Assembly (NCBI GenBank): GCA_024278955.1
Contig: JAJRSE010000036.1
Location: 1 to 64,000 of the forward strand
DNA from: Planctomycetota bacterium
GTDB lineage: Bacteria; Planctomycetota; Planctomycetia; Pirellulales; Lacipirellulaceae
Reading direction: 5' to 3'
DNA: 64,000 bases
A program made the translations under genes and the position numbers. Shown here in pieces: positions 12,001-43,467 of the stretch (position 1 is the first letter of the stretch; each line of letters begins with the position of its first letter). The notes beneath the pieces were generated by a model. That model had not been told where the DNA came from. It searched no databases and saw nothing but the letters and a program-made list of their open reading frames with translations.

Positions 12001-12542
12001 CAGACGAAAACATGCCAAGCGAAGGTGAGCCTTCCGAGCAACCGTCGGGCAACCACCAGGACGCTCCTGGTGGTTCAAGTCAGCCGACCGCAGGAGGTGG
12101 CCAAGGAGGAGAGGGTTCGCCCCCTCCCTCGAGCGGAGAAATCGAAGCCGGCGATGAAGCCAATCTTGACTACGCTCGACAGCAAACCGATTTGATTCTC
12201 AACAAACTGGACGACCAACTCGACCAGAAAGAAGTCGACGAGAAACTTCTTGAGAAGCTCGGCTGGAGCAAGGACGAGTTACGGCGGTTTGTTGATCGTT
12301 GGAAAAATCTCAAAAAACAAGCCGCAGGCGAAGACGAGTCGTCTGCCGCAAAGCAGCAGCTCGACGATGCCTTGCAAAGCCTCGGTTTGGGACGCAATCG
12401 CCAGTCGGGGTTCCACTCTCAAACCGCAAAAGACAAGCTACGCGAGCTGCAAGATTCTTATCGGGGAAAAATTCCGCTGAAATATCAGCAACGCGTTCGA
12501 GCCTACGTCAAAGGAACGGCAACAGCGTCTGAGGAAGAGTAA
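9087..12542 (+). CDS. Giant membrane-anchored protein with acidic low-complexity domain (DUF4175-like)
   Basis: This 1151-residue protein has two hydrophobic helices near 45-65 and 75-95, another near 170-190, and a beta-rich region (about 205-535) with repeats like VEGTVVTITAMSNQPI. Residues about 537-1020 are an extreme low-complexity tract of Gly, Glu, Ser, Gln and Asp. A C-terminal folded helical segment (about 1025-1145, with the WSKDELRRFVDRWKNLKKQA motif) closes it. The N-terminal part resembles the DUF4175-type proteins often found beside MoxR/DUF58 genes; no such genes are adjacent here. The charge pattern suggests a disordered spacer, perhaps extracytoplasmic. Function unknown. Confidence 0.75.
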   Translation: MASVTETQPPKDPAGETPSKGELLVDEQIRRTRRALKIVDLAAGMISLVIGVLVFLLTAAALDHWVIPGGWGTGGRTVLFLMLLAGVGWHGWHVFWPMLHQSINPAYAAQAIEQSSPALKNSLLNFLLLRKRKRRISRQVFQAIEQQAARGLSQVAMDSVVDRSSVLRLGYLLLAVVAICSLYRVLSPKDLFTSAGRVLLPWTNVIAPSRVQLSAISPGDTQTAKGERVDVSAEVLGLEEGEPVRLLYSTADQQIVEQEIVMLAAAGGVHFEAKLPQRMSEGGVQQDLTYWIEAGDARSPAFQVSVFARPTLIVQSVRYNYPDYTGYPSREETNTGDLRAVEGTVVTITAMSNQPIETGHVDFEADGRQDLLMKVDAQQATVSFPLELRDDRRTPLHQSYVLRYSTTKGRKNRLPPTYQIEVTPDYSPEIRLLSPEEEIVEVGVDDQVTIEVEARDPDFALRNVAILGEVAGQQVIKETLLSKKNHTGRFVGQIQLVPSQQGLKVGDVLEYWGAAADNRQPKANLAFTSRHKIRVVGPGEEGKQGSDPSDEGKSGEGEPQPGEGESDSSDEGGDESGGESGGESGESGGEQGQQGQGQSGAGEAGEGMSDEQNQQQGGKAGESESSEGNEDSQSESEGQAGGESEGEQQDGESPESEGGENSSGSKPSDEQASGNQEKVSPDGDDDAAAFDRMAEHFDEQHSDEQEENDANSEGDPSENDDPSGASKGEQQEGSGDSSDGTADPDQSDRGEGTEDAKTSEAGEEGNSNSAEGMPQESDSESGGAEGDPSEQQGEGSDQEGEQSQDDTGTEGQMSKEQGEAGAGENPGDNEGTTASEDGQAPEEKQGDPSTAGNENDEEAPSEGQGQTESDSEGSQGGDRSGGGQEGSGQQADAEGKGGAGEHQAADEGGSKSEQPGEGETSEQAGGEKQSDGPTGESSEDQAGNGSKAGDKAGDQAGGKNQGESGESQQGAADENMPSEGEPSEQPSGNHQDAPGGSSQPTAGGGQGGEGSPPPSSGEIEAGDEANLDYARQQTDLILNKLDDQLDQKEVDEKLLEKLGWSKDELRRFVDRWKNLKKQAAGEDESSAAKQQLDDALQSLGLGRNRQSGFHSQTAKDKLRELQDSYRGKIPLKYQQRVRAYVKGTATASEEE

Positions 12543-12604
12543 ACCGACGCGGGCTTCCTTTATTCGGGCTGGCAAACCGTGCTAACTTGGGCGACAATCG
12601 TTGC

Positions 12605-14212
12605 ATGACTACTTCTGTTCCTCGTTATCTTGTTGCGTTTCATCCGAAGCAAATTCCCCACCATTTTGTCGATGTGCTAATCCTCGGCGGCGGTATCGCA
12701 GGGCTGCGTGCAACGATGGGAGTTGATCCAAGTCTCTCGGCACTCGTGGTCACAAAAGATCGCCTTAACGAGTCGAACAGCGTTTACGCCCAAGGAGGTA
12801 TTGCGGGGGTTATTGCTCCGGAAGATCAGTTCGAGAATCATATTGCCGACACGCTCACCTCGGGCGCCGAACTGTGTGACTCGGAAATCGTGGAAATGGT
12901 CATCCGCGAAGCGCCTAAGCATATTCAGCAGCTTGTGGAATGGGGAACCGCTTTCGACCGCGAAAAGGGAAAGCTCACTCTTGGCCGTGAGGGGGGGCAT
13001 AGCCATCATCGGATTGTTCATGCGCTTGGCGATGCGACAGGCAAAGAGATCATGCGGGCGATGATCGAGCGGGCACGAGAAGAGCTGGAGGCGCAGATTT
13101 GGGAAAACACTTTTACGATCGATCTCTTAACCCACGAAGGCGAATGCCATGGCGCGTTGGTTTGGAACCAATATCACGGCAAGACGTTTATTTGGGCTAA
13201 ACAAACCATTCTTTGCACCGGTGGCGCCGGGCAGATCTATCGCGAAACCACCAACCCGTTGGTCGCCACCGGCGATGGCCACGCGATTGCCTACCGAGCC
13301 GGAGCGAAATTGCTCGATATGGAGTTCATGCAATTCCATCCGACCGTTCTCTACATTGCCGGCAGCAGCCGCACGCTTATTACCGAGGCAGTTCGAGGCG
13401 AAGGTGCGCTGCTGCTGAACGCCGCAGGCGAGCGATTCATGCCTTCGTACGACGAACGGGCCGAGCTGGCTCCACGCGACATCGTGAGCCGAGCGATCGT
13501 CGATCAGATGCGCAAAACAAGCCATCCGTGCGTTTATCTCGACCTTTCGCCGCTAGGGCCTGAGCTTGCCCTGAAACGATTTCCGGGAATTGCCCGAAGC
13601 TGCGGCGAGTTTGGCATCGACATCACCCGTGACCGAATTCCTGTACGTCCTGGTGCGCATTACATGATCGGCGGTGTCGAAGTCGACCAACGTGGAGCCA
13701 CGACGCTCCCCCGACTCTGGGCTTCGGGCGAAGTGACTAGTAGCGGCTTGCACGGTGCCAATCGGCTTGCCTCGAACAGCCTGCTCGAAGGACTGGTCTA
13801 CGGAGCCCATGCCGGCGAGGCGGCATCGGCTGCCGCGATCGAGCAGCCCGACACGTACCAGGCCACGCCGCTCAGCAATCCGGCGATCGAAGCCCACGGC
13901 GAGCCACTCGACTTGGTCGATATTCGCAACTCGCTTAAAAGCCTTATGTGGCGAGCCGCTGGGGTGCGACGCGAAGGAGAAGAGCTAGCCCGCGCGGGGG
14001 AAACGATCGACCAATGGTGCCGTTATGCCCTGACCTGCCAGTTAACCGACCCGGCTGGCTGGGAGCTACAGAACATGCTTACGGTATCGCGCGTCGTGAT
14101 CGAAGCGGCCCTACGGCGAGAGGAATCCCGCGGGGTGCATTTCCGAATTGATTTTCCGGAGCGGGATAATGCAAGTTGGCAGGAGCGGCTGGGGATTACC
14201 TGCGGAGCCTAG
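12605..14212 (+). CDS. nadB: L-aspartate oxidase
   Basis: NadB oxidises L-aspartate to iminoaspartate, the first step of de novo NAD synthesis. The 535-residue protein has the FAD-binding GGGIAGLRA motif near residue 30, the SNSVYAQGGIAG loop, the REGGHSHHRIVHALGDATG active-site block, EFMQFHPTVL, and ASGEVTSSGLHGANRLASNSLLEG. The C-terminal helical domain is complete and ends in a DFPERDNASWQERLGITCGA-like tail. That tail is repeated downstream at 14681-14770. No nadA or nadC gene is visible nearby. The ATG at 12605 is preferred to the TTG at 12587. Confidence 0.93.
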   Translation: MTTSVPRYLVAFHPKQIPHHFVDVLILGGGIAGLRATMGVDPSLSALVVTKDRLNESNSVYAQGGIAGVIAPEDQFENHIADTLTSGAELCDSEIVEMVIREAPKHIQQLVEWGTAFDREKGKLTLGREGGHSHHRIVHALGDATGKEIMRAMIERAREELEAQIWENTFTIDLLTHEGECHGALVWNQYHGKTFIWAKQTILCTGGAGQIYRETTNPLVATGDGHAIAYRAGAKLLDMEFMQFHPTVLYIAGSSRTLITEAVRGEGALLLNAAGERFMPSYDERAELAPRDIVSRAIVDQMRKTSHPCVYLDLSPLGPELALKRFPGIARSCGEFGIDITRDRIPVRPGAHYMIGGVEVDQRGATTLPRLWASGEVTSSGLHGANRLASNSLLEGLVYGAHAGEAASAAAIEQPDTYQATPLSNPAIEAHGEPLDLVDIRNSLKSLMWRAAGVRREGEELARAGETIDQWCRYALTCQLTDPAGWELQNMLTVSRVVIEAALRREESRGVHFRIDFPERDNASWQERLGITCGA

Positions 14213-29909: not shown

Positions 29910-31343
29910 TCAATGATTGTGCCCTGCGTGCGGATCGACTCCGCCGCCGGCTTTGTTTTTGAGAGCAACTTGCATCTGATGTGCGCCAGTCAGCGCAACC
30001 ACATCCCCCGGAAACAGCGACCCGTCGTTAGCGATCACAACCCAAAGTTGATCTCGGTATTCCACGTGGACAGGCTTTTGGTCGAAATGGTCGCCGTTTT
30101 CCAGGAAAACAAAGGTCTCGGCTCCCTCCTGCGCGACCGCCTCCACTGGTAACACGATTCGGTCTGACCACTGCTCGACGGGGACGCGAAGCTGCATCCG
30201 TTGCCCTGGCTTGAATCGCCAGGCCAGAAAACGGCGTCCCTCGGGAGTCAGCGTATTTTGAACGACTTGGTTGGGAAGATGGACGAAGAACCGCTGTGCC
30301 CGCGAGTCGGATTCGATTTCATTATCGATATAAACAATTTTTAGCCCTTCGACCGTTTTCAAGCCTCGGCCATTGTTTTCCAGCATCGCTGTGATGTCCC
30401 AGCCCGACTCGCCGGCGGCCTGCATCTTCGAGGCATGCGTAATTTCAACGGCATCATGCTCAAAGGCGCGGCCTTCGACATACAGCTTGTCAAAGTCGGC
30501 CAAGATGGCCATCGGGTCTCCAGCACGGACCATCGACCCGGTATTGAGATTGATCTTTTGCACCATGAACAGATGAAGAGTTTTAGCCGTTTGTGCTACG
30601 GAAGAATGTGACGGAAGGGCCGGTGCTCGAACTTCAAGCTCTCTCAGCAAACGTCGATCACGGATGATAGAATCGATCTGTTCGTCAGATAAACCATGGA
30701 GCAAGAGCGATTCTCGAGTGGCGTTGAAAACCGCTTCAAGCTTTTGCTTGGAGTACTGTCGTTCAAGCAGCCTCTTGCCGGCGATCACGCCGCTGCTATC
30801 GAGCCCGGTAAGCCGAGCAATCTCGCGATCTTCGACATCAAGTTCCCCCAGGGTCGTTAGAAATGCCGTTTGAGCTTGCACTAAATCTTCGTGTGTGAGG
30901 CGCACCTTGAACAACAACGTGCCCGGCTCAACTGCCTCGCCCTGCAGAACATGCACCGAAGAGACCACCCCGGTCATCGGCGAAGCGACTTGAACTTGGG
31001 TACGCCCTGGAAGTTCAACCACGCGGGCCGGAACATTAAGCGTTCGCGTAAACAATCCGAGCTTGATCGGTTGTAGCGTGTCCGCAGTCAACCCGATGTT
31101 ACGGCGTGCCTGTTTTGAAAGATGCAAAGAGCTTGCCTCGTCATGCCCCGCATGATCGTGCCCCTCATGCCCTCCATCGTCATGCCCATTCGCGTCTTCC
31201 TCGCCTGAAGCCGACTTTGGCTCATCGAAAAGGGGCAGCCAATACGATCTTGTCGAAACTATCGTCACGGCGAGAAGGCACAGCCAAACGACCGTAATCG
31301 AGGTTTGAGTCAAACGATTTTTTGCCGAATTTACTGACGTCAT
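29910..31343 (-). CDS. Membrane-fusion protein of the RND metal pump
   Basis: A 477-residue periplasmic adaptor (HlyD/CusB type) linking the RND pump to the TolC-like channel. It has one N-terminal helix (about 16-36), then a His/Asp/Gly-rich metal-binding stretch (about 46-70), the lipoyl-type VQVASPMTGVVSSVHVLQGEAVEPG segment, a helical hairpin, and beta-barrel segments. It ends in a His-rich HAGHNH tail. GGAG before the ATG at 31343 fixes the start. It precedes the pump gene in the same orientation. Confidence 0.88.
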   Translation of the reverse strand: MTSVNSAKNRLTQTSITVVWLCLLAVTIVSTRSYWLPLFDEPKSASGEEDANGHDDGGHEGHDHAGHDEASSLHLSKQARRNIGLTADTLQPIKLGLFTRTLNVPARVVELPGRTQVQVASPMTGVVSSVHVLQGEAVEPGTLLFKVRLTHEDLVQAQTAFLTTLGELDVEDREIARLTGLDSSGVIAGKRLLERQYSKQKLEAVFNATRESLLLHGLSDEQIDSIIRDRRLLRELEVRAPALPSHSSVAQTAKTLHLFMVQKINLNTGSMVRAGDPMAILADFDKLYVEGRAFEHDAVEITHASKMQAAGESGWDITAMLENNGRGLKTVEGLKIVYIDNEIESDSRAQRFFVHLPNQVVQNTLTPEGRRFLAWRFKPGQRMQLRVPVEQWSDRIVLPVEAVAQEGAETFVFLENGDHFDQKPVHVEYRDQLWVVIANDGSLFPGDVVALTGAHQMQVALKNKAGGGVDPHAGHNH

Positions 31344-31513
31344 AATACACTCCGCGTTCGCATCTCGTGCCAAAACCGACACAAGACGCGAAGGAGAAAA
31401 AGGGTAGCGCAGACCTCGAACGGTCTAACACCGAGAGAGTTTTTTTCACAAACGAAAACAGGACGTTAAGAAACCGCGTAAAAAACTACGCAGCGATTCG
31501 TCTCGGCTGCAAA

Positions 31514-32032
31514 TCAAATCAGCAGCACAGAATTGGCGAGGTGCAAGCGCACCGGTCCCCTAGGCAAAGAAAAGTCTGCCAAAAAATTGCAATCGCCCGT
31601 ACCAGCCACGAGATCGCAAACTAGCAAGTTCGACGAACGAAACAAAAGATCCTCAGAAAACTGCAACCACTTCGAGGCAGAGCAATTTCGTGTTTCAGGT
31701 GCAAGCCAGTTGCAGTTGCCATGGCCACACGGGTGCGTTCCACTCTGCTGCGCCCCATTCTGCTGTACATGACACCCACCGGCCAAATGCTGCGATCCTT
31801 CTGAGTGTTTGACGTGCTCGTGAACAGCATGATCCTGAACGTCATGTCCGTGAATCGCGTCATGCTTGCAAGTCGCATGGTCATGACCACCATGCTCAGA
31901 ACCACAGCCGTCGCTCGCAGAAACGACAGCAGAACCCTCGCTCGTCTCGCGATGTGCTTCGTGCGTACAACAGCCCAACGTGGCATGCACGAAAACAGCA
32001 GCGACGGTAAGCAGATGAACGAACAAAGTCAT
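31514..32032 (-). CDS. Exported His/Cys-rich protein of the metal-efflux operon
   Basis: A 172-residue protein with a hydrophobic leader (FVHLLTVAAVFVHATLGC), a His-rich centre (about 40-105 with repeated GHDH, KHD, HGH words) and several cysteines, so it can bind soft metals. The second half is more hydrophobic and unlike a known fold. It lies between the TolC and adaptor genes on the same strand. No family was recognised. Confidence 0.62.
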   Translation of the reverse strand: MTLFVHLLTVAAVFVHATLGCCTHEAHRETSEGSAVVSASDGCGSEHGGHDHATCKHDAIHGHDVQDHAVHEHVKHSEGSQHLAGGCHVQQNGAQQSGTHPCGHGNCNWLAPETRNCSASKWLQFSEDLLFRSSNLLVCDLVAGTGDCNFLADFSLPRGPVRLHLANSVLLI

Positions 32033-32184
32033 AGGACGAACAAGTATAGGAGTTAATCAGTAAAAATCGAATCGACGAAGTAACCTACTCGGTTTCCGAG
32101 ATTAGACAAGGCTATCTATCATAAGTCTAGCTCGGTAAGCGTCTCACTTCTACGCCAGATCTGGCCAAATCGCTCGATTTCGTA

Positions 32185-33606
32185 CTACCTTGCCTGCTCC
32201 GCAAGGCTCCCATCGAGCAAAAACCCATCAATTTGAACGTAACTCTGCCACAGCGAGCCCAGCGCATCCAAATAAGCCAGATTCGTCTGCGAAAAGGTTC
32301 GCTGAGCAGCCAGCACATCAAGATACCCCGCTTCGCCCTGTGCGTAACCTAACTGCACCAGATCAAATGTCTGTTTGGCCCTCGGCAAGATATCGGTCGC
32401 ATAAGTCGTTGCCATAATGTGGGCATCAGAATACTGGCGGAAGGCATCGGCCAACCGGCGGTTGAGGTTCTGCTCAACACGATCGACATTGCGAGCCGCC
32501 TCGGCAATCTCTGCCCGTGCCTGCCGTATCCCGCCTTGGTTGCGATTCCAAATTGGCAGTGCAATCCCAAATTGCACACCGGCAATGGTATCGTCAGTCG
32601 AATCATCGTATTGCACGCTTAGCTGTGTATTGATATTCGGAACCGCCTGGACACAAGCACGGTTCAAGGCGCGGCGTGCCCGCTCAACACTTGCCATCGC
32701 GGCAGCAATCTCAGGGCTTTCCGCTTGAAGTCGTTCTTGCTGATTTTGCCAATCGAGCATTTCTGGAACTTGGCTCATATCGCCTACCAGCGGCTGAACC
32801 GAAAGCTCCTCTCCCCCCACAACCGCAGACAATCGCCGCCACGCTTGGGCAAGACCATTTTCTGCCGTTTGCAACAGCAATAAAGCGTTCTGCTGTTGCA
32901 CTTCAGTCTGCAACAACCCGGCCAAAGGAACCTCTTCTGCATCGTAAAGCGATTTCGAGGCCTTTGCCGCCTCGGTAGAAACACGAACCAAAGCTTCGGC
33001 CAGGTGCTTACGGCGTTGCGCGAGCAGCGCCTCGTAGTAGCCCTTTTGAACATCCGTTTGAACTCGCCGCTGCATCGCAACAAGCTGTTGTTCGGCACGA
33101 TTGATTTCCGAAGAAACAACCGCACGGTTCTTTTGAAGTTTTCCAGCCGTAATAAAATTCTGCCCGACAAATCCGCCCTGTTGGCCTGCTGCGCCTTCAT
33201 TACCAATTTCACTCGCGACATAACCTACCGTCGGATTCGGCGCCAGACCCACTTGCAAACGCTTGCCTCGCAATGCCCGAATACGCGCTGCCGCCTGGGC
33301 GATCGAAGGGCTATTCGCTAGCGCCATCTCTTCGAGGGCTTCTCTCGTAAGACCACCAGTCGCGGGTAGCGGTTGCGGCACCGCCGACTCGCCCACCTCA
33401 TCAAGCTTTTCCGCTACCGAACGAGGTTGGATCAATTCAGTCGACGCCGCCTCGGCTGGTTCTTCCAGGTAGTCGACCTGCGCGACCGGCTGAAGAGAGC
33501 TGCCCGCAGAGCCGACAACCGGCCCCACCACCAAGCCGCCTTTTCCCGACGCGCACCCGGCAGCGGACATCAACACAACAGCCACCCATCTCCCACGCTT
33601 AGTCAT
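32185..33606 (-). CDS. TolC-family outer-membrane efflux lipoprotein
   Basis: A 473-residue outer membrane factor completing the tripartite pump. It has a lipoprotein signal (VVLMSAAGC), a Pro/Glu linker, and two long alpha-helical repeats typical of OEP/TolC proteins, with ANSPSIAQAAARIRALRG and LQAESPEIAAAMASVERARRAL starting the halves. GGAGG lies just before the ATG at 33606; an upstream in-frame start adds a non-lipoprotein leader and was rejected. Confidence 0.88.
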   Translation of the reverse strand: MTKRGRWVAVVLMSAAGCASGKGGLVVGPVVGSAGSSLQPVAQVDYLEEPAEAASTELIQPRSVAEKLDEVGESAVPQPLPATGGLTREALEEMALANSPSIAQAAARIRALRGKRLQVGLAPNPTVGYVASEIGNEGAAGQQGGFVGQNFITAGKLQKNRAVVSSEINRAEQQLVAMQRRVQTDVQKGYYEALLAQRRKHLAEALVRVSTEAAKASKSLYDAEEVPLAGLLQTEVQQQNALLLLQTAENGLAQAWRRLSAVVGGEELSVQPLVGDMSQVPEMLDWQNQQERLQAESPEIAAAMASVERARRALNRACVQAVPNINTQLSVQYDDSTDDTIAGVQFGIALPIWNRNQGGIRQARAEIAEAARNVDRVEQNLNRRLADAFRQYSDAHIMATTYATDILPRAKQTFDLVQLGYAQGEAGYLDVLAAQRTFSQTNLAYLDALGSLWQSYVQIDGFLLDGSLAEQAR

Positions 33607-33748
33607 CCTTGACCTCCCGAGATTTTTTTCCTTCTCCTGGCTTCCTGTGTCTCCTTCTTCGGCTGGAATACAACGCTTCGCCACTCCAGCCGTGCTAGCT
33701 ACGCACGGTTTAACAGCGCGATACCCGGGCAAGGTCTGCTAGCACAAC

Positions 33749-34162
33749 TCAATCCTTGAGAAACCGAACGATCCGCTGCTCAATCTCGTCTCGAACTCGA
33801 CGAAAAAATTCCATCTGCTGCTCATCACTCCCCACCGCATCCGCCGGGTCATCGAAAGGCCAATGCAAAAGCTCCGCAGCCGCCGGAAACGCCGGACACG
33901 ATTCCTTCGCATGGTCGCAAACCGTCACAACGACGTCGAACTCTTGCCCTGCAAATTCTTCGACCGACTTGCTCCGCCCCGAATCGATGTCGATGCCTCG
34001 CTCCTGCATGGCTTGCAGCGCAAGCCGATGAACATACCCCGAGGGCTTAGAACCCGCAGAATGCGATTCCCACTTACCCTCGCCAAGCGCCCGCCAAAGC
34101 CCTTCCGCCATCTGACTACGGCAAGAATTCCCGGTACAAAGAATTAAAACACGTTTTATCAT
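33749..34162 (-). CDS. ArsC-type arsenate reductase (thioredoxin-linked, LMW phosphatase fold)
   Basis: A 137-residue protein with the low-molecular-weight phosphatase loop CTGNSCR (Cys9-Arg15) and the second conserved pair in VCDHAKESCPAF (near 82 and 89) used by thioredoxin-coupled arsenate reductases. It reduces arsenate to arsenite. GAGGAAGG precedes the ATG. It sits at the promoter-proximal end of the metal-efflux genes, which suggests a combined metal/metalloid resistance unit, though no arsenite pump or ArsR is visible here. Confidence 0.85.
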   Translation of the reverse strand: MIKRVLILCTGNSCRSQMAEGLWRALGEGKWESHSAGSKPSGYVHRLALQAMQERGIDIDSGRSKSVEEFAGQEFDVVVTVCDHAKESCPAFPAAAELLHWPFDDPADAVGSDEQQMEFFRRVRDEIEQRIVRFLKD

Positions 34163-36793: not shown

Positions 36794-37342
36794 TCATGTT
36801 TTTTTGCACTCCCACAGTTCCTGCGAATCGATCCGCAATGCTCGGTTGAATTTACTGGAACAGTTTTCCCACGAAATGGTTGCGGTAAGTTCAACAATTT
36901 CGTCGTCGGAAAAGTGCTGTTGGACTTGAGTGAATAATTGCTCGCTTACGTCAAGCTCGGTGATCGTAATACCGTCGGCATACTCAAGGGCGACTTTCTC
37001 GCGGTCGTTAAAAAGAGAGCTTGTTTTATAGTTCGGGATATCGAGAATTTTTTCGACGGCCACTCCTTCTCTACTGCTCACGGCAGCATTGATGTCCTGT
37101 CAGAACACGCACCCATTCAAAGCGGCCACTCTGCGGTTGACCAGGGTCGTCAACTTGTAGTCGAGCAGTCCCGAGGACTTGAGGCCCTCCCACATTCCGA
37201 GCACCGCGTGGAACACGGACGGACGGCGGGCGTAAATTTCGTACGGCTCAAGCGTGGCGCCCCATTCCTCAATTTGCCTAGCAAACACTTTGCTTTCAGC
37301 CGGTTCCGCTCGAGTCGTATCAACTCCAGTTATTCGTGCCAT
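36794..37342 (-). CDS. AhpD-like protein with in-frame TGA at the CxxC cysteine: selenoprotein candidate
   Basis: A carboxymuconolactone decarboxylase/AhpD-like thiol oxidoreductase, 182 residues if the in-frame TGA at 37100-37102 is read through. The TGA falls at residue 81 in the context NGCVF[TGA]QDI, exactly where the family has the second cysteine of its CxxC redox pair (Cys78-x-x-81). Both halves are in the same frame with no frameshift, and the 101 codons after the TGA stay family-like (EKVALEYADGITITELDVS, WENCSSKFNRALRI). If decoded as selenocysteine the motif is CxxU. AAGGA lies 7 bases before the ATG, and TAATG couples it to the GNAT gene. The alternative is a recent nonsense mutation. 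The genome's Sec machinery is not in the window. Confidence 0.75.
37072..37088 (-). promoter_or_regulatory. Candidate bacterial SECIS hairpin
   Basis: On the minus strand, 12 bases after the in-frame TGA, TGCTGC pairs with GCAGTA (6 bp, one G-T) around a CGTGA loop. The apical loop starts 17 bases after the TGA and has G at its second position, which fits the loose consensus for bacterial SECIS elements. The hairpin lies inside the coding sequence, as bacterial SECIS elements do. The stem is short, so it is supportive rather than decisive. Confidence 0.45.
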
Positions 37343-37755
37343 TAGGTATTCCTTGGAAGGACCCAAGCCCTCGGGTGAGGATCAAAGCCAATGTGTGGAT
37401 AGAAATTATTGGCATCAGGCGCAGAGAGCAAGACCATCATGCACTTGGGACCCAAAGCCGCTTGTGTTTCTTGCACCAGACGTTTGCCAACGCCTTGTTG
37501 CTGATGCGATTTTGCTACTGCAAGATCTGCAAGGTAAGCAACGTACCCAAAATCTGTGAGCGTTCTGGCAATGCCGATAAGTGCGTCGCCTTCCCATGCG
37601 GTGATCGTTAAGTCTGCGTTTTCCATCATCTGGCGCATCGCATCTTGGTCATCCGCTGGACGTCGTTCGGCAAGGGTAGACGACCGATACAGTTCAATGA
37701 ACGCATCTAAGTCTAGGGGAATGTTTTTCTGATACCGGATTGCTGGAATGCTCAT
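37342..37755 (-). CDS. GNAT-family N-acetyltransferase
   Basis: A 137-residue GCN5-related acetyltransferase. The acetyl-CoA binding motif A is seen as LAVAKSHQQQGVGKRLVQET (Q/R-x-x-G-x-G/A), and the C-terminal FYPHIGFDP matches the GNAT tail. The substrate is unknown. Its TAA overlaps the ATG of the AhpD-like gene (TAATG), so the pair is translationally coupled. The start at 37755 is preferred over a TTG at 37764. Confidence 0.85.
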   Translation of the reverse strand: MSIPAIRYQKNIPLDLDAFIELYRSSTLAERRPADDQDAMRQMMENADLTITAWEGDALIGIARTLTDFGYVAYLADLAVAKSHQQQGVGKRLVQETQAALGPKCMMVLLSAPDANNFYPHIGFDPHPRAWVLPRNT

Positions 37756-37871
37756 GGCGTACAAAAATCAACAGAGAGTTATGCTGGTCGTAGATCGGAT
37801 CGATGGTCGCTGAAGAGTCATTTTATGAAGTCTGTGCGAAACTTACAATCGCCCTGGGCATCTTGTGTGCC

Positions 37872-39593
37872 TCAAACCCACCACAAGACAACGGCAAGAA
37901 CCATTAAACCAACTGCCAGCCAGTCTCGCCGAGACCACCGGTCGCTACGGGAATTGAACCTTAGGAAATCCAGGAGGGCACCGGTGGGGCAGCCATAGCG
38001 ACAATAGGCCATCGGTACAAACAGCGAGGCTATCAGCCCTACGAGGGCTATCGCGATCGTCGTCCAACCGGCGACGCGAAATACCCAAGCGTCGAACGGT
38101 TCGATATCCACCAGGCTAAATGACATCGCAACCATAGCAACCACAACGCTCCAGACGAGCAGCGCCGCTGGAAGGGCCGGAAGAAATCTTTTTAACCATC
38201 GGGGCAGGCGAAGTTGCCAAGGCAATCGTTTTTTCAGCAGTTGCTGAGCAGCTCCATGAGGACACAGATGAGTGCAATAGATATTCCGGCGCGTCACAAG
38301 TGGCACCAGAAAAGCGGCTGTCGTCAGAAGAACCAGTCCGCCCGCATTGCGCCACGGCACACCGTTTTGTGACCAACCGGCAATCAGAGCCTGCGAGAGC
38401 ATGTCGCCGTTGATCAGCCCCAGATAACCGATCAACAGCAACTGAAGCAAGAGACGCACCACTCGGTTGGAGCGAAGTGACGTGAACCCGACGATTAGGC
38501 CTGCCAAAACGACTGCGGCTGTTCCGAAATCGCGCAGTGTCCACTTTACGCGGGGCCACTTGCCACGATGGCCCGTCTCCTTTTGCGGTGTGGCAAGCTG
38601 GCGTCGATGTTCCGCTGCTGCCAGCACAAGTCCTCGGGCAATGGCCATACTCGTCATCGTTGCCCCCGAGACTCCCTCGACTTCGGCCTTTTCTAGATCA
38701 AACTTGGCAAGTTCTTCCAGAACCATGTTGTTAAATCGTGGGAGAAAATACTCATTCTCTCGCACGTATGTGACGTAAGGCTCGTTGTCGTAGCTCTTGC
38801 CCAGCAAGATGCCCACCGTGGTACCCATGCGATCGAATCCAATCAACGCTTCGGTTGGTCCTTGGTACCCGATTATTTGGTCGGCCGAGGGCGACGTTCG
38901 CAAAATCGATCCGATTTCTCTCTTGCGACTGTTACTTACGTGCCACAGCGAGCTGTTGGATTGGTCTGCTTCGACGGCGACCGCCTCGGAAAAAAATCGG
39001 CACGCCTCGTCGAGCGTTAAGGGATCGGGGAAACGCAACGAGGGCTGTTTGCCGCCCAACCGGTGAATGATCGCTTCTTGAATGGCTAGGCTCGTCAGAG
39101 TTGCCCCAGAAACGGCGTCTATCTTCGTTCTCAGAGCCATCTCTTTCCACGTCTGACCAAGAAAGGCCTGAAGAAATCGCTCGTCCTGACGAACTTGTTT
39201 CACATGCTCTCTTGTGTCCCTGCTTGAGAGAATGCGGACACCCACAACACGATGGTTTGCTCCGAAAGCAATTCTTGAATTCGTCGGTCCCGAAAAGCCG
39301 AGAACGTGGTCGCTCTGCGGCGAGGTTTGCAGGAAATACCCCAGCAGCTTCCCCGCGGCATCATAGACCTCGCGTTTGCCATCGCTGGACACTCGATCAG
39401 CGATCTGCATGGCCTCTGGAAAGAGTTCTTGCACTTGCTTCAAATCCACAGGAGCAAGGAGAAGCGTTTGCTGCTCTGCCACATGCTGTGTATGCCGAGC
39501 GTGGATTAGCATAAGGATCAGCGTAAAGAGCAAAACGCGGACGGCATGCAACGTGATCTGTCGTGGAAAACCTGATTGGTTGGCTGTCGGCAT
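37872..39593 (-). CDS. Membrane protein with two FMN-binding domains and NosR-like 4Fe-4S core
   Basis: A 573-residue membrane redox protein. An N-terminal helix (about 17-33) is followed by two FMN-bind domains, each with the SGATxT motif (about 162-167 and 309-314) where FMN is normally attached covalently through the last Thr. A membrane part follows with about five helices and two cysteine clusters, CTHLCPHG (near 440) and CRYGCPTG (near 531), resembling NosR/NapH polyferredoxins. It should carry electrons across the membrane. No nos, nap or rnf genes are adjacent. A truncated copy of its 5' end lies at 41224-41395. Confidence 0.82.
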   Translation of the reverse strand: MPTANQSGFPRQITLHAVRVLLFTLILMLIHARHTQHVAEQQTLLLAPVDLKQVQELFPEAMQIADRVSSDGKREVYDAAGKLLGYFLQTSPQSDHVLGFSGPTNSRIAFGANHRVVGVRILSSRDTREHVKQVRQDERFLQAFLGQTWKEMALRTKIDAVSGATLTSLAIQEAIIHRLGGKQPSLRFPDPLTLDEACRFFSEAVAVEADQSNSSLWHVSNSRKREIGSILRTSPSADQIIGYQGPTEALIGFDRMGTTVGILLGKSYDNEPYVTYVRENEYFLPRFNNMVLEELAKFDLEKAEVEGVSGATMTSMAIARGLVLAAAEHRRQLATPQKETGHRGKWPRVKWTLRDFGTAAVVLAGLIVGFTSLRSNRVVRLLLQLLLIGYLGLINGDMLSQALIAGWSQNGVPWRNAGGLVLLTTAAFLVPLVTRRNIYCTHLCPHGAAQQLLKKRLPWQLRLPRWLKRFLPALPAALLVWSVVVAMVAMSFSLVDIEPFDAWVFRVAGWTTIAIALVGLIASLFVPMAYCRYGCPTGALLDFLRFNSRSDRWSRRDWLAVGLMVLAVVLWWV

Positions 39594-39871
39594 CAACGAA
39601 CCTGTTCGGGTTTCGCGGTATGGTCTGTTCGCTAGGGAGCTTAGCTATTATAGACTCGGAGTAACTGGGTTAGCATGTACGATCTATGAAAAAAGTTGAT
39701 GCCAGCAGCGAGTGAATCTTATCGATCGCGGGCGGGTGCTCTGAGTTGACCGGGGGAAATGACTATCTTATAGTACCGTCTGTGTTCGGAACAGTTGTGT
39801 AGGACGCTGTCAGCAACCCGTTGAAAAGTTCGTAGGTTTGGAACAAGGAGCATCAGCAACGCAGTTCCGGC

Positions 39872-41709: not shown

Positions 41710-41780
41710 TGGGGAATAGTGTAACGGTAGCACTACGGACTCTGACTCCGTCAGTCTAGGTTCAAATCCTAGTTCCCCAG
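41710..41780 (+). tRNA. tRNA-Gln (CTG)
   Basis: A 71-base cloverleaf: acceptor TGGGGAA pairs with TTCCCCA, the anticodon stem ACGGA/TCCGT encloses CTCTGAC with anticodon CTG, and the T arm is CTAGG-TTCAAAT-CCTAG. The discriminator is G and CCA is not encoded. An integrase remnant starts about 210 bases downstream in the same orientation, so the gene has probably served as an integration site. Confidence 0.93.
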
Positions 41781-41990
41781 CTTGTTTCTCTTCTCTCGCC
41801 CATGGCCAAGCCGTTGTTCTCAAACGGCTTACGCGATTTGGCTCTTCCGCCGCCTGAGCCGCGTTTTCAGCACTGACACAAAACTGACACACTTGGGCAA
41901 CCACAGGGCAGTCATATTGCTGGTCTCCGGGGGGCCTCCACGCGATCATTCCATCAGTCAACAAATCGGTTGCTCGGTGGAAATCAAAAC

Positions 41991-42468
41991 GTGGCAAGTC
42001 TTAAACGACATCCTGAATCGGGCCAGTACCATCTGCGGTTCCGCTTCGCAGGTCGCGGCTACCGCACGAGATTATCAGTTCCCTATCTCGTGGGAAGCTA
42101 ACGCCAGAGGAAGAGACGGAAATTTGGGACGCTCTGTATTTGCGGACTTCCGAGGTTGAGAATTGCTTGCAGCATATCGAGAAAACCAGCCAGCAAAGTT
42201 TTGTTTATCCGATGATGATGTTAGCCGCCTACACCGGTGCCCGACGAAGTGAGCTGGTACGGTCTCGTCTGGACGATCTCGATTTTCATTCCGGCATGAT
42301 CCGTATCCGAGAGAAAAAACGGAGCCGTGAGTTTAGCCTCAGCTATCGCTATGTTCCGATGACCCAGCAATTAAGCGGCGTACTTGAAATGTGGCTCAAG
42401 CAGCATCCAGGCGGACAGAATACCCTGATGGCTGATGACGGTACTGAGGTGACTGCTAAAATGGCTAA
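41991..42468 (+). pseudogene. Tyrosine recombinase (integrase) remnant
   Basis: From the GTG at 41991 one frame reads an integrase-like N-terminal (SLKRHPESGQYHLRFRFAGR...). A different frame then carries the catalytic part: KLTPEEETEIWDALYLRTSE and the first catalytic-arginine box AAYTGARRSEL, followed by LDDLDFHSGMIRIREKK. The second Arg/His box and the active Tyr are missing. An internal deletion, at least one frameshift and a truncation near 42470 (where transposase sequence follows) make it dead. It points downstream of tRNA-Gln, as integrases of tRNA-borne islands do. Confidence 0.78.
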
Positions 42469-43467
42469 TTGGTCGTCCCTGAAAAAGCCACCGTGCCAGC
42501 GGGGCGCGGTTTTACCGTGGTTCGTTGGGGGCATTGTTGGGTCGTGCTGTGCGTGGTGATCCAAAGTCCGCGAACTCCTGGACGTTATTTTGCGTTGCCG
42601 ATCTTGGCTCGCTTGTATTTGAATAAAAAATCCTCCGAAAAATGGGACCGAACCTATCGCAGCAAGCCCGAGTTGATGTTGGAGATGCTCAAGCTAGTGT
42701 ACGCCCATGATCCCGAGCAAAGCCTGCATTTTCTGGGGGATTCGGCTTTCACTTCGAGTTCGATGCTGAAGAAGATGCCCGAGGCAATCGCCGTGACGGG
42801 GCGAATTGGCTGCAACTCGCGAATTCATGCACCGGCCCCAAAGCGTCAACCGGGCCAACGTGGTCGAACGCGCGTGCGCGGCGAGCGATTGGACACACCT
42901 GAGGAGATGCTCGATGCGAAAGGTTTACGACGCGTCGGTTTGAAGCTCTACGAAAGCACCGAGTACAAAGTCCGATTGGCCGAACAAGGAGGTTTTCTGT
43001 TCAACGCTCCCGACCGCCCCATCAAAATCGTCGCGATTGAACATCAGCGAGGTGGTCGAGGCCGTGAAGTTTTTTACAGCACCGAGATTAGCGCCGAAGC
43101 AGAACAGATTCTGCAATGGTTCTCATGGCGGTGGCCGATTGCAGTCACTTTCCATGATAGTAAACAGCATTTAGGACTGGGCGAAGCAGAGAACCGCAAA
43201 ACCAAAGCGGTCCGTCGCACGGTCCCCACTGGCCTGTTGATGTACAGCTTGGTGGTCTTGTGGCACGAATGCATTCGCAAGAAACCGGCCCCCCGATTAA
43301 GAAAGTGGGCCGGCAAAGATCACGCCTCGTTCGCTGAAATGCTGGCGGCCCTCCGGATCGACAGTTTAGCCGAATTCAAGAGAAAACATTTATCAACACC
43401 CGGGGTTCCAGCGGGCATTCATAAATTTCTCAAACCCCTGGAATACCTGATCGCACTCGCTGCATGA
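42469..43467 (+). pseudogene. 5'-truncated DDE transposase
   Basis: About 315 residues of a DDE transposase are recognisable from RWGHCWVV (near residue 18) through HFLGDSAF, WFSWRWPIAVTFHDSKQHLG and TGLLMYSLVVLWHE. The region that should hold the first catalytic Asp is missing, because the element joins the integrase remnant at about 42470-42515. The family looks like the IS701/IS4 group, but I cannot fix it. Terminal inverted repeats were not found. It is probably inactive. Confidence 0.7.

Follow-up and report, generated by a model that had tools for sequence, protein, structure and literature searches.

A probable AhpD-fold selenoprotein with a CxxU motif encoded in a planctomycete genome

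The locus, its reading frame and its surroundings

The window, i.e., the whole stretch of 64,000 nucleotides that was analysed, belongs to a Planctomycetota genome of 4.6 Mb in 146 contigs (93.4% complete, 0.56% contamination), and carries on its minus strand an AhpD-like gene in which a TGA triplet occupies the position of a catalytic cysteine codon. The features of the window that bear on its decoding are listed below, together with the evidence for each of them.

36794..37342, minus strand: AhpD-like selenoprotein CDS with predicted Sec at residue 81 (readthrough translation, PF02627, NF053654, 24 homologous loci with TGA, AhpD-fold model)
37100..37102, minus strand: internal TGA, proposed Sec codon (U81) at the second CxxC position (TGA or Cys in relatives)
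37109..37111, minus strand: TGC codon of C78, the first (putatively resolving) Cys of CxxU (invariant in the 32-row alignment)
37072..37088, minus strand: SECIS-type hairpin, stem UGCUGC / GCAGUA, loop CGUGA (covariation, folds, synonymous-codon test, published bSECIS criteria)
37342..37764, minus strand: GNAT acetyltransferase gene, its TAA overlapping the selenoprotein ATG (PF13673/PF13508/PF00583)

Translated through the TGA, the frame runs from 37342 to 36794 and comprises 182 codons followed by a terminal TGA at 36796-36794. The sole internal stop is the TGA at 37102-37100, which represents codon 81 in the context N-G-C78-V-F-U81-Q-D-I-N and replaces the second cysteine of the CxxC motif, yielding CVFU. 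The ATG (37342-37340) overlaps the stop codon of the upstream GNAT gene (TAATG) and is preceded at 7 nt by AAGGA, and the two genes are probably co-transcribed. The coordinates, length, motif and GNAT overlap given in the original prediction agree with this translation; the strand had been left unstated, and is the minus strand. Standard ORF calling splits the gene at the TGA, and in the table-11 ORF list with a 90-aa threshold it appears only as a 95-aa ORF that starts from a GTG at 37081.

Positions 37872-39596 of the minus strand, upstream of the GNAT gene, encode a NosR/NirI-like membrane protein that gave two matches each to FMN-binding and 4Fe-4S (Fer4_5) domains. The plus-strand region 41710-43467, which may mark the border of a mobile region, contains a tRNA gene and after it part of a phage integrase (42140-42559) and an ORF resembling DDE transposases (42469-43467). 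On the minus strand at 29910-34162, HlyD/CusB-type and OEP efflux genes adjoin a low-molecular-weight phosphatase/ArsC-like gene, and may constitute a metal or arsenic resistance cluster. The GNAT gene was not seen adjoining the homologues in the relatives examined, and no conserved gene neighbourhood was found around the selenoprotein gene among eight relatives.

Decoding of the internal TGA

Besides the window, 24 homologous loci with 26-65% identity carry a TGA at the same codon, and these include members of the Planctomycetota and the Verrucomicrobiota as well as one Acidobacteriota MAG; a chance occurrence of the TGA is excluded by this sharing. GTDB genomes yielded six homologues with 56-65% identity, from Verrucomicrobia/Pedosphaera MAGs, a Planctomycetales MAG and an Acidobacteriota MAG, and each of them has TGA at the position of codon 81 (6/6), as does L025, a homologue with 35% identity whose genome belongs to the same order. 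Within the phylum, homologues at E<=1e-25 were present in 28 of 392 genomes, 16 of which (the host genome included) contain at least one copy with TGA at exactly this position. Among the remaining 12 genomes, ten could be aligned by tblastn and have Cys at this position, while matches without an internal stop in the other two genomes (G330 and G440) were counted as Cys-type. The residue in relatives, for which the original prediction had proposed an alignment of homologues, is thus TGA or Cys and nothing else. Two tandem AhpD-like genes on a single contig (G069:C13, L048 at 12468-13007 and L072 at 13136-13675) each contain TGA at the CxxU position. A search of 13 genomes of the same genus did not recover the window gene, although G006 among them has a weaker relative without internal stop; patchy loss or transfer of the gene is likely.

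The protein encoded after the TGA is colinear and conserved among the homologues. Pairwise codon comparison with one of them (L037) over the 96 codons following the TGA revealed 29, 11 and 56 differences at codon positions 1, 2 and 3, respectively. This region thereby displays a coding pattern without sign of decay at the sequence level, in line with the earlier statement that the family pattern is retained beyond the TGA.

The bacterial SECIS element that had been suggested as a check appears to be present. The sequence UGCUGC-CGUGA-GCAGUA forms a 6-bp stem with a 5-nt loop that has G at its second position; it starts 11 nt 3' of the UGA, has a UGA-to-loop spacing of 17 nt and a free energy of -8.5 kcal/mol, and agrees with every one of the published bSECIS criteria listed (loop of 3-9 nt, stem of 4-16 bp, G in the first two loop positions, spacing of 16-37 nt, MFE <= -7.5). 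Across eight sequences, 48 of the 48 stem cells are paired, as compared to 93.3% in shuffles; changes on both sides were observed at two of the six stem pairs, and shifting of the stem partner abolished pairing. The stability of the hairpin by itself is unremarkable (z -1.2). When synonymous codons were drawn at random 4000 times for nine close family members, with the amino acids kept fixed, on average 32.7 and at most 43 of 54 pairs were formed, whereas 53 of 54 are observed, which indicates that the hairpin constrains the DNA in addition to the encoded amino acids. In the distant group L057-L060 the stem is absent at this fixed position. A stem with a CGUGA loop is found approximately 7 nt further downstream in L057, L058 and L060, which suggests that the SECIS has moved in these sequences.

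The host genome encodes selA, selB, selC and selD, the search for which had also been suggested, in a single cluster on contig C95, and a second selenoprotein gene was detected on another contig:

G000:C95:2514-8663, divergent orientation: sel cluster (L022) with tRNA-Sec, Ndh-SelD-type fusion, SelB and SelA
G000:C125:4715-4918, minus strand: second selenoprotein (L074), SelW-like, MKLSIKYCGMU (TIGR02174, one internal TGA)

The tRNA-Sec scores 70.4 bits, and the SelD protein of 733 aa has an N-terminal extension like that of Ndh-SelD fusions and a SelD domain with CGGC; Ndh-SelD fusions with CxxC have been described (PMC2398784). In their tetranucleotide profiles, the window, the sel contig and further contigs of this genome correlate at 0.91-0.97, as compared to 0.58-0.69 with loci of five other genomes, which are shorter and therefore noisier; this suggests that the window contig and the sel contig belong to one genome.

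Among the 28 homologue-bearing genomes of the phylum, SelB was above cutoff in all 16 genomes with TGA versus 8 of the 12 genomes with Cys only (Fisher P 0.024, for genomes that are related to one another). tRNA-Sec is likewise missing from the four genomes lacking SelB (G403, G090, G171 and G154), each of which has the Cys form. No tRNA-Sec was found in the TGA genomes G344, G129 and G353, which are all drafts in hundreds of contigs. For the seven genomes reached via L037-L042 and L025, both tRNA-Sec and SelB were above cutoff in four; among the other three, which are drafts, SelB was not found in G060 and G062, and tRNA-Sec not in G062 and G063. A tRNA-Sec scoring above 60 bits was present in 6 of the 13 genomes of the same genus (G002, G009, G010, G011, G012 and G013).

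These observations bear on two other explanations of the internal TGA. A nonsense mutation, or an error in sequencing or assembly, could have turned a CxxC AhpD-like gene into a pseudogene, and the TGA is indeed the only one in frame within the window gene and lies one base from TGC/TGT; the same TGA nevertheless recurs in 24 other loci of several phyla, the codon pattern 3' of it is undecayed, the hairpin displays covariation and synonymous-codon constraint, and the host genome has the sel genes, which leaves this explanation with a negligible probability. The single-base nonsense change that the original prediction had named as its main alternative is effectively excluded by the 24 shared loci and the lack of decay. 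It is scarcely more probable that the UGA acts as a true stop, giving an 80-residue product, or is read as Trp or Cys through a reassigned code or near-cognate readthrough. TGA is a stop codon in table 11 and some termination at a Sec UGA is normal, but the selenoprotein gene itself ends at TGA, so that this codon is not generally reassigned, and neither the alternation with Cys only, at the catalytic position, nor the combination of a SECIS-type hairpin with sel genes fits such a reading. Only decoding as Sec accounts at once for the hairpin, the sel genes and the alternation of TGA with Cys, and it is strongly supported by these, with the SelW-like second selenoprotein in addition. Judged from the genomic evidence, the UGA at codon 81 is almost certainly decoded as Sec in the cell.

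Fold, active site and proposed chemistry

The readthrough frame matches the CMD family PF02627 with 38.6 bits against a cutoff of 23. Moreover, the model NF053654 ('YciW-related (seleno)protein') runs through the TGA, from residue 1 to 178 (model positions 1-178 of 179), with E ~1e-74, and its score of 249.6 bits remains below the equivalog cutoff of 310; on sequence grounds the window protein is classified as a homologue on a side branch rather than an equivalog-level member. An AlphaFold2 model, calculated from the 32-row alignment with Cys in place of Sec, has a mean pLDDT of 96.1 and a pTM of 0.91. It matches solved structures at TM 0.7-0.88, the closest being debrominase Bmp8 (TM 0.84), PA0269, Atu0492, 2prr and D. 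radiodurans AhpD. Because the model is confident and matches solved AhpD-type folds, the protein is predicted to have an AhpD-like, all-helical fold that includes the N-terminal helices, and this fold, together with the PF02627 score above the gathering cutoff, places it in the CMD/AhpD superfamily.

The best sequence matches among solved structures are PA0269 and Atu0492 (2o4d, 2ijc, 7xw1, 2gmy), which superimpose with approximately 1.2 A rmsd over 136 residues; these proteins have CxxC with Cys and retain His (and Glu or His) of the relay, unlike the window protein. Bmp8 (6ohi, 6ohj) is the best overall match in fold, N-terminal helices included; it has a CMYC motif with Cys and 17-18% identity to the window protein, and dehalogenation is a feature of Bmp8.

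The proton relay of classical AhpD consists of the five residues Glu, Cys, His/Tyr, Cys and His (PMC3141380). The corresponding residues in the window protein are Thr66, Cys78, Phe80, Sec81 and Asn85, i.e., Glu, Tyr/His and His are replaced and the CxxC/U pair alone is kept, with C78 being invariant in the 32-row alignment. The relay His is also missing from the Cys-form members L043, L051, L052 and L055 of the same clade. As these Cys forms lack most of the relay residues too, relay loss characterises the clade rather than the presence of Sec. In another subgroup, L067 and L073 (G147, G252) have CxxU at the same site (CEYU and CDYU) and keep the relay Glu and His; a possible second in-frame TGA was also flagged in L067. 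The idea that loss of the relay His is a consequence of Sec was dropped in view of the four Cys forms without His and these two Sec members with it.

In classical AhpD the second cysteine of the CxxC motif, Cys133 of the M. tuberculosis protein, attacks first and the other cysteine resolves. U81 takes the position of this second cysteine and would therefore be the reactive residue. In the proposed mechanism, SelB with Sec-tRNA-Sec would recognise the hairpin 11 nt after the UGA and direct Sec to residue 81, whereby a C78-x-x-U81 redox pair would be formed in the AhpD fold. The U81 selenolate would most likely attack a hydroperoxide, or else some other substrate that is oxidised or electrophilic, C78 would then resolve U81 to form a selenenylsulfide, and this would be reduced by a dithiol donor of the thioredoxin or lipoamide type. 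The gene thus very probably encodes an AhpD-fold CxxU selenoprotein in which UGA is read as Sec and U81 is the reactive residue, with C78 resolving. CxxU redox chemistry of the protein is likely, and for a hydroperoxide as its substrate the chances appear about even. We infer the catalytic role of a selenol/thiol peroxidase or oxidoreductase, as well as the electron donor. With the proton relay of classical AhpD not conserved, it is uncertain whether the protein acts as a hydroperoxidase; a selenol is ionised at neutral pH, so that an enzyme with Sec may be able to dispense with the relay.

The enzyme could be a selenoprotein and yet no hydroperoxidase, using CxxU for reductive dehalogenation as in Bmp8 or for detoxification of another electrophile, which is considered unlikely. 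Such a function would be consistent with Bmp8 as the best fold match (TM 0.84 at 17-18% identity), an enzyme whose chemistry has been compared with that of thyroid deiodinase, itself a Sec protein, and with the missing relay residues; by analogy, Bmp8 indicates that an AhpD-like fold can perform chemistry besides peroxide reduction. In sequence, however, the protein lies nearer to the peroxidase-like group of Atu0492 and PA0269, no gene for halogen metabolism was seen adjoining the window gene, and a substrate is not deducible from fold alone. The broader proposal that the CxxU YciW clade forms a branch of the AhpD fold with a chemistry of its own, in which a selenolate drives a non-hydroperoxide reaction without the relay, is similarly regarded as improbable.

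Relation to known selenoproteins and significance

The family is already known, and Sec decoding is a well-known mechanism. The Sargasso Sea survey of 2005 described 27 sequences of CxxU AhpD-like (COG2128/YciW) selenoproteins (PMC1088965) and the GOS survey of 2008 described 299 (PMC2398784), which bears out the earlier reference to environmental sequence data, and they appear in current selenoprotein lists (PMC9312934, PMC13188914). Compared by description, these proteins belong to the same COG-level family and share CxxU and a downstream hairpin with a G in the loop; they are metagenomic fragments, whereas the window gene resides in a genome with a whole sel cluster. NF053654, named GroundWater_YciW, has the same CxxU site and matches over its full length, with the window protein below its equivalog cutoff; a literature search on the origin of this name found nothing specific. 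The presence of sel genes and selenoproteins in planctomycetes has been on record since 2016 (PMC4807772).

The locus offers a clean genomic case of Sec use in a planctomycete-type lineage, in which the gene, a SECIS-type hairpin, a sel cluster and a second selenoprotein occur together. Moreover, it raises a testable question, namely which reaction an AhpD-fold enzyme catalyses when it has CxxU and lacks the proton relay.
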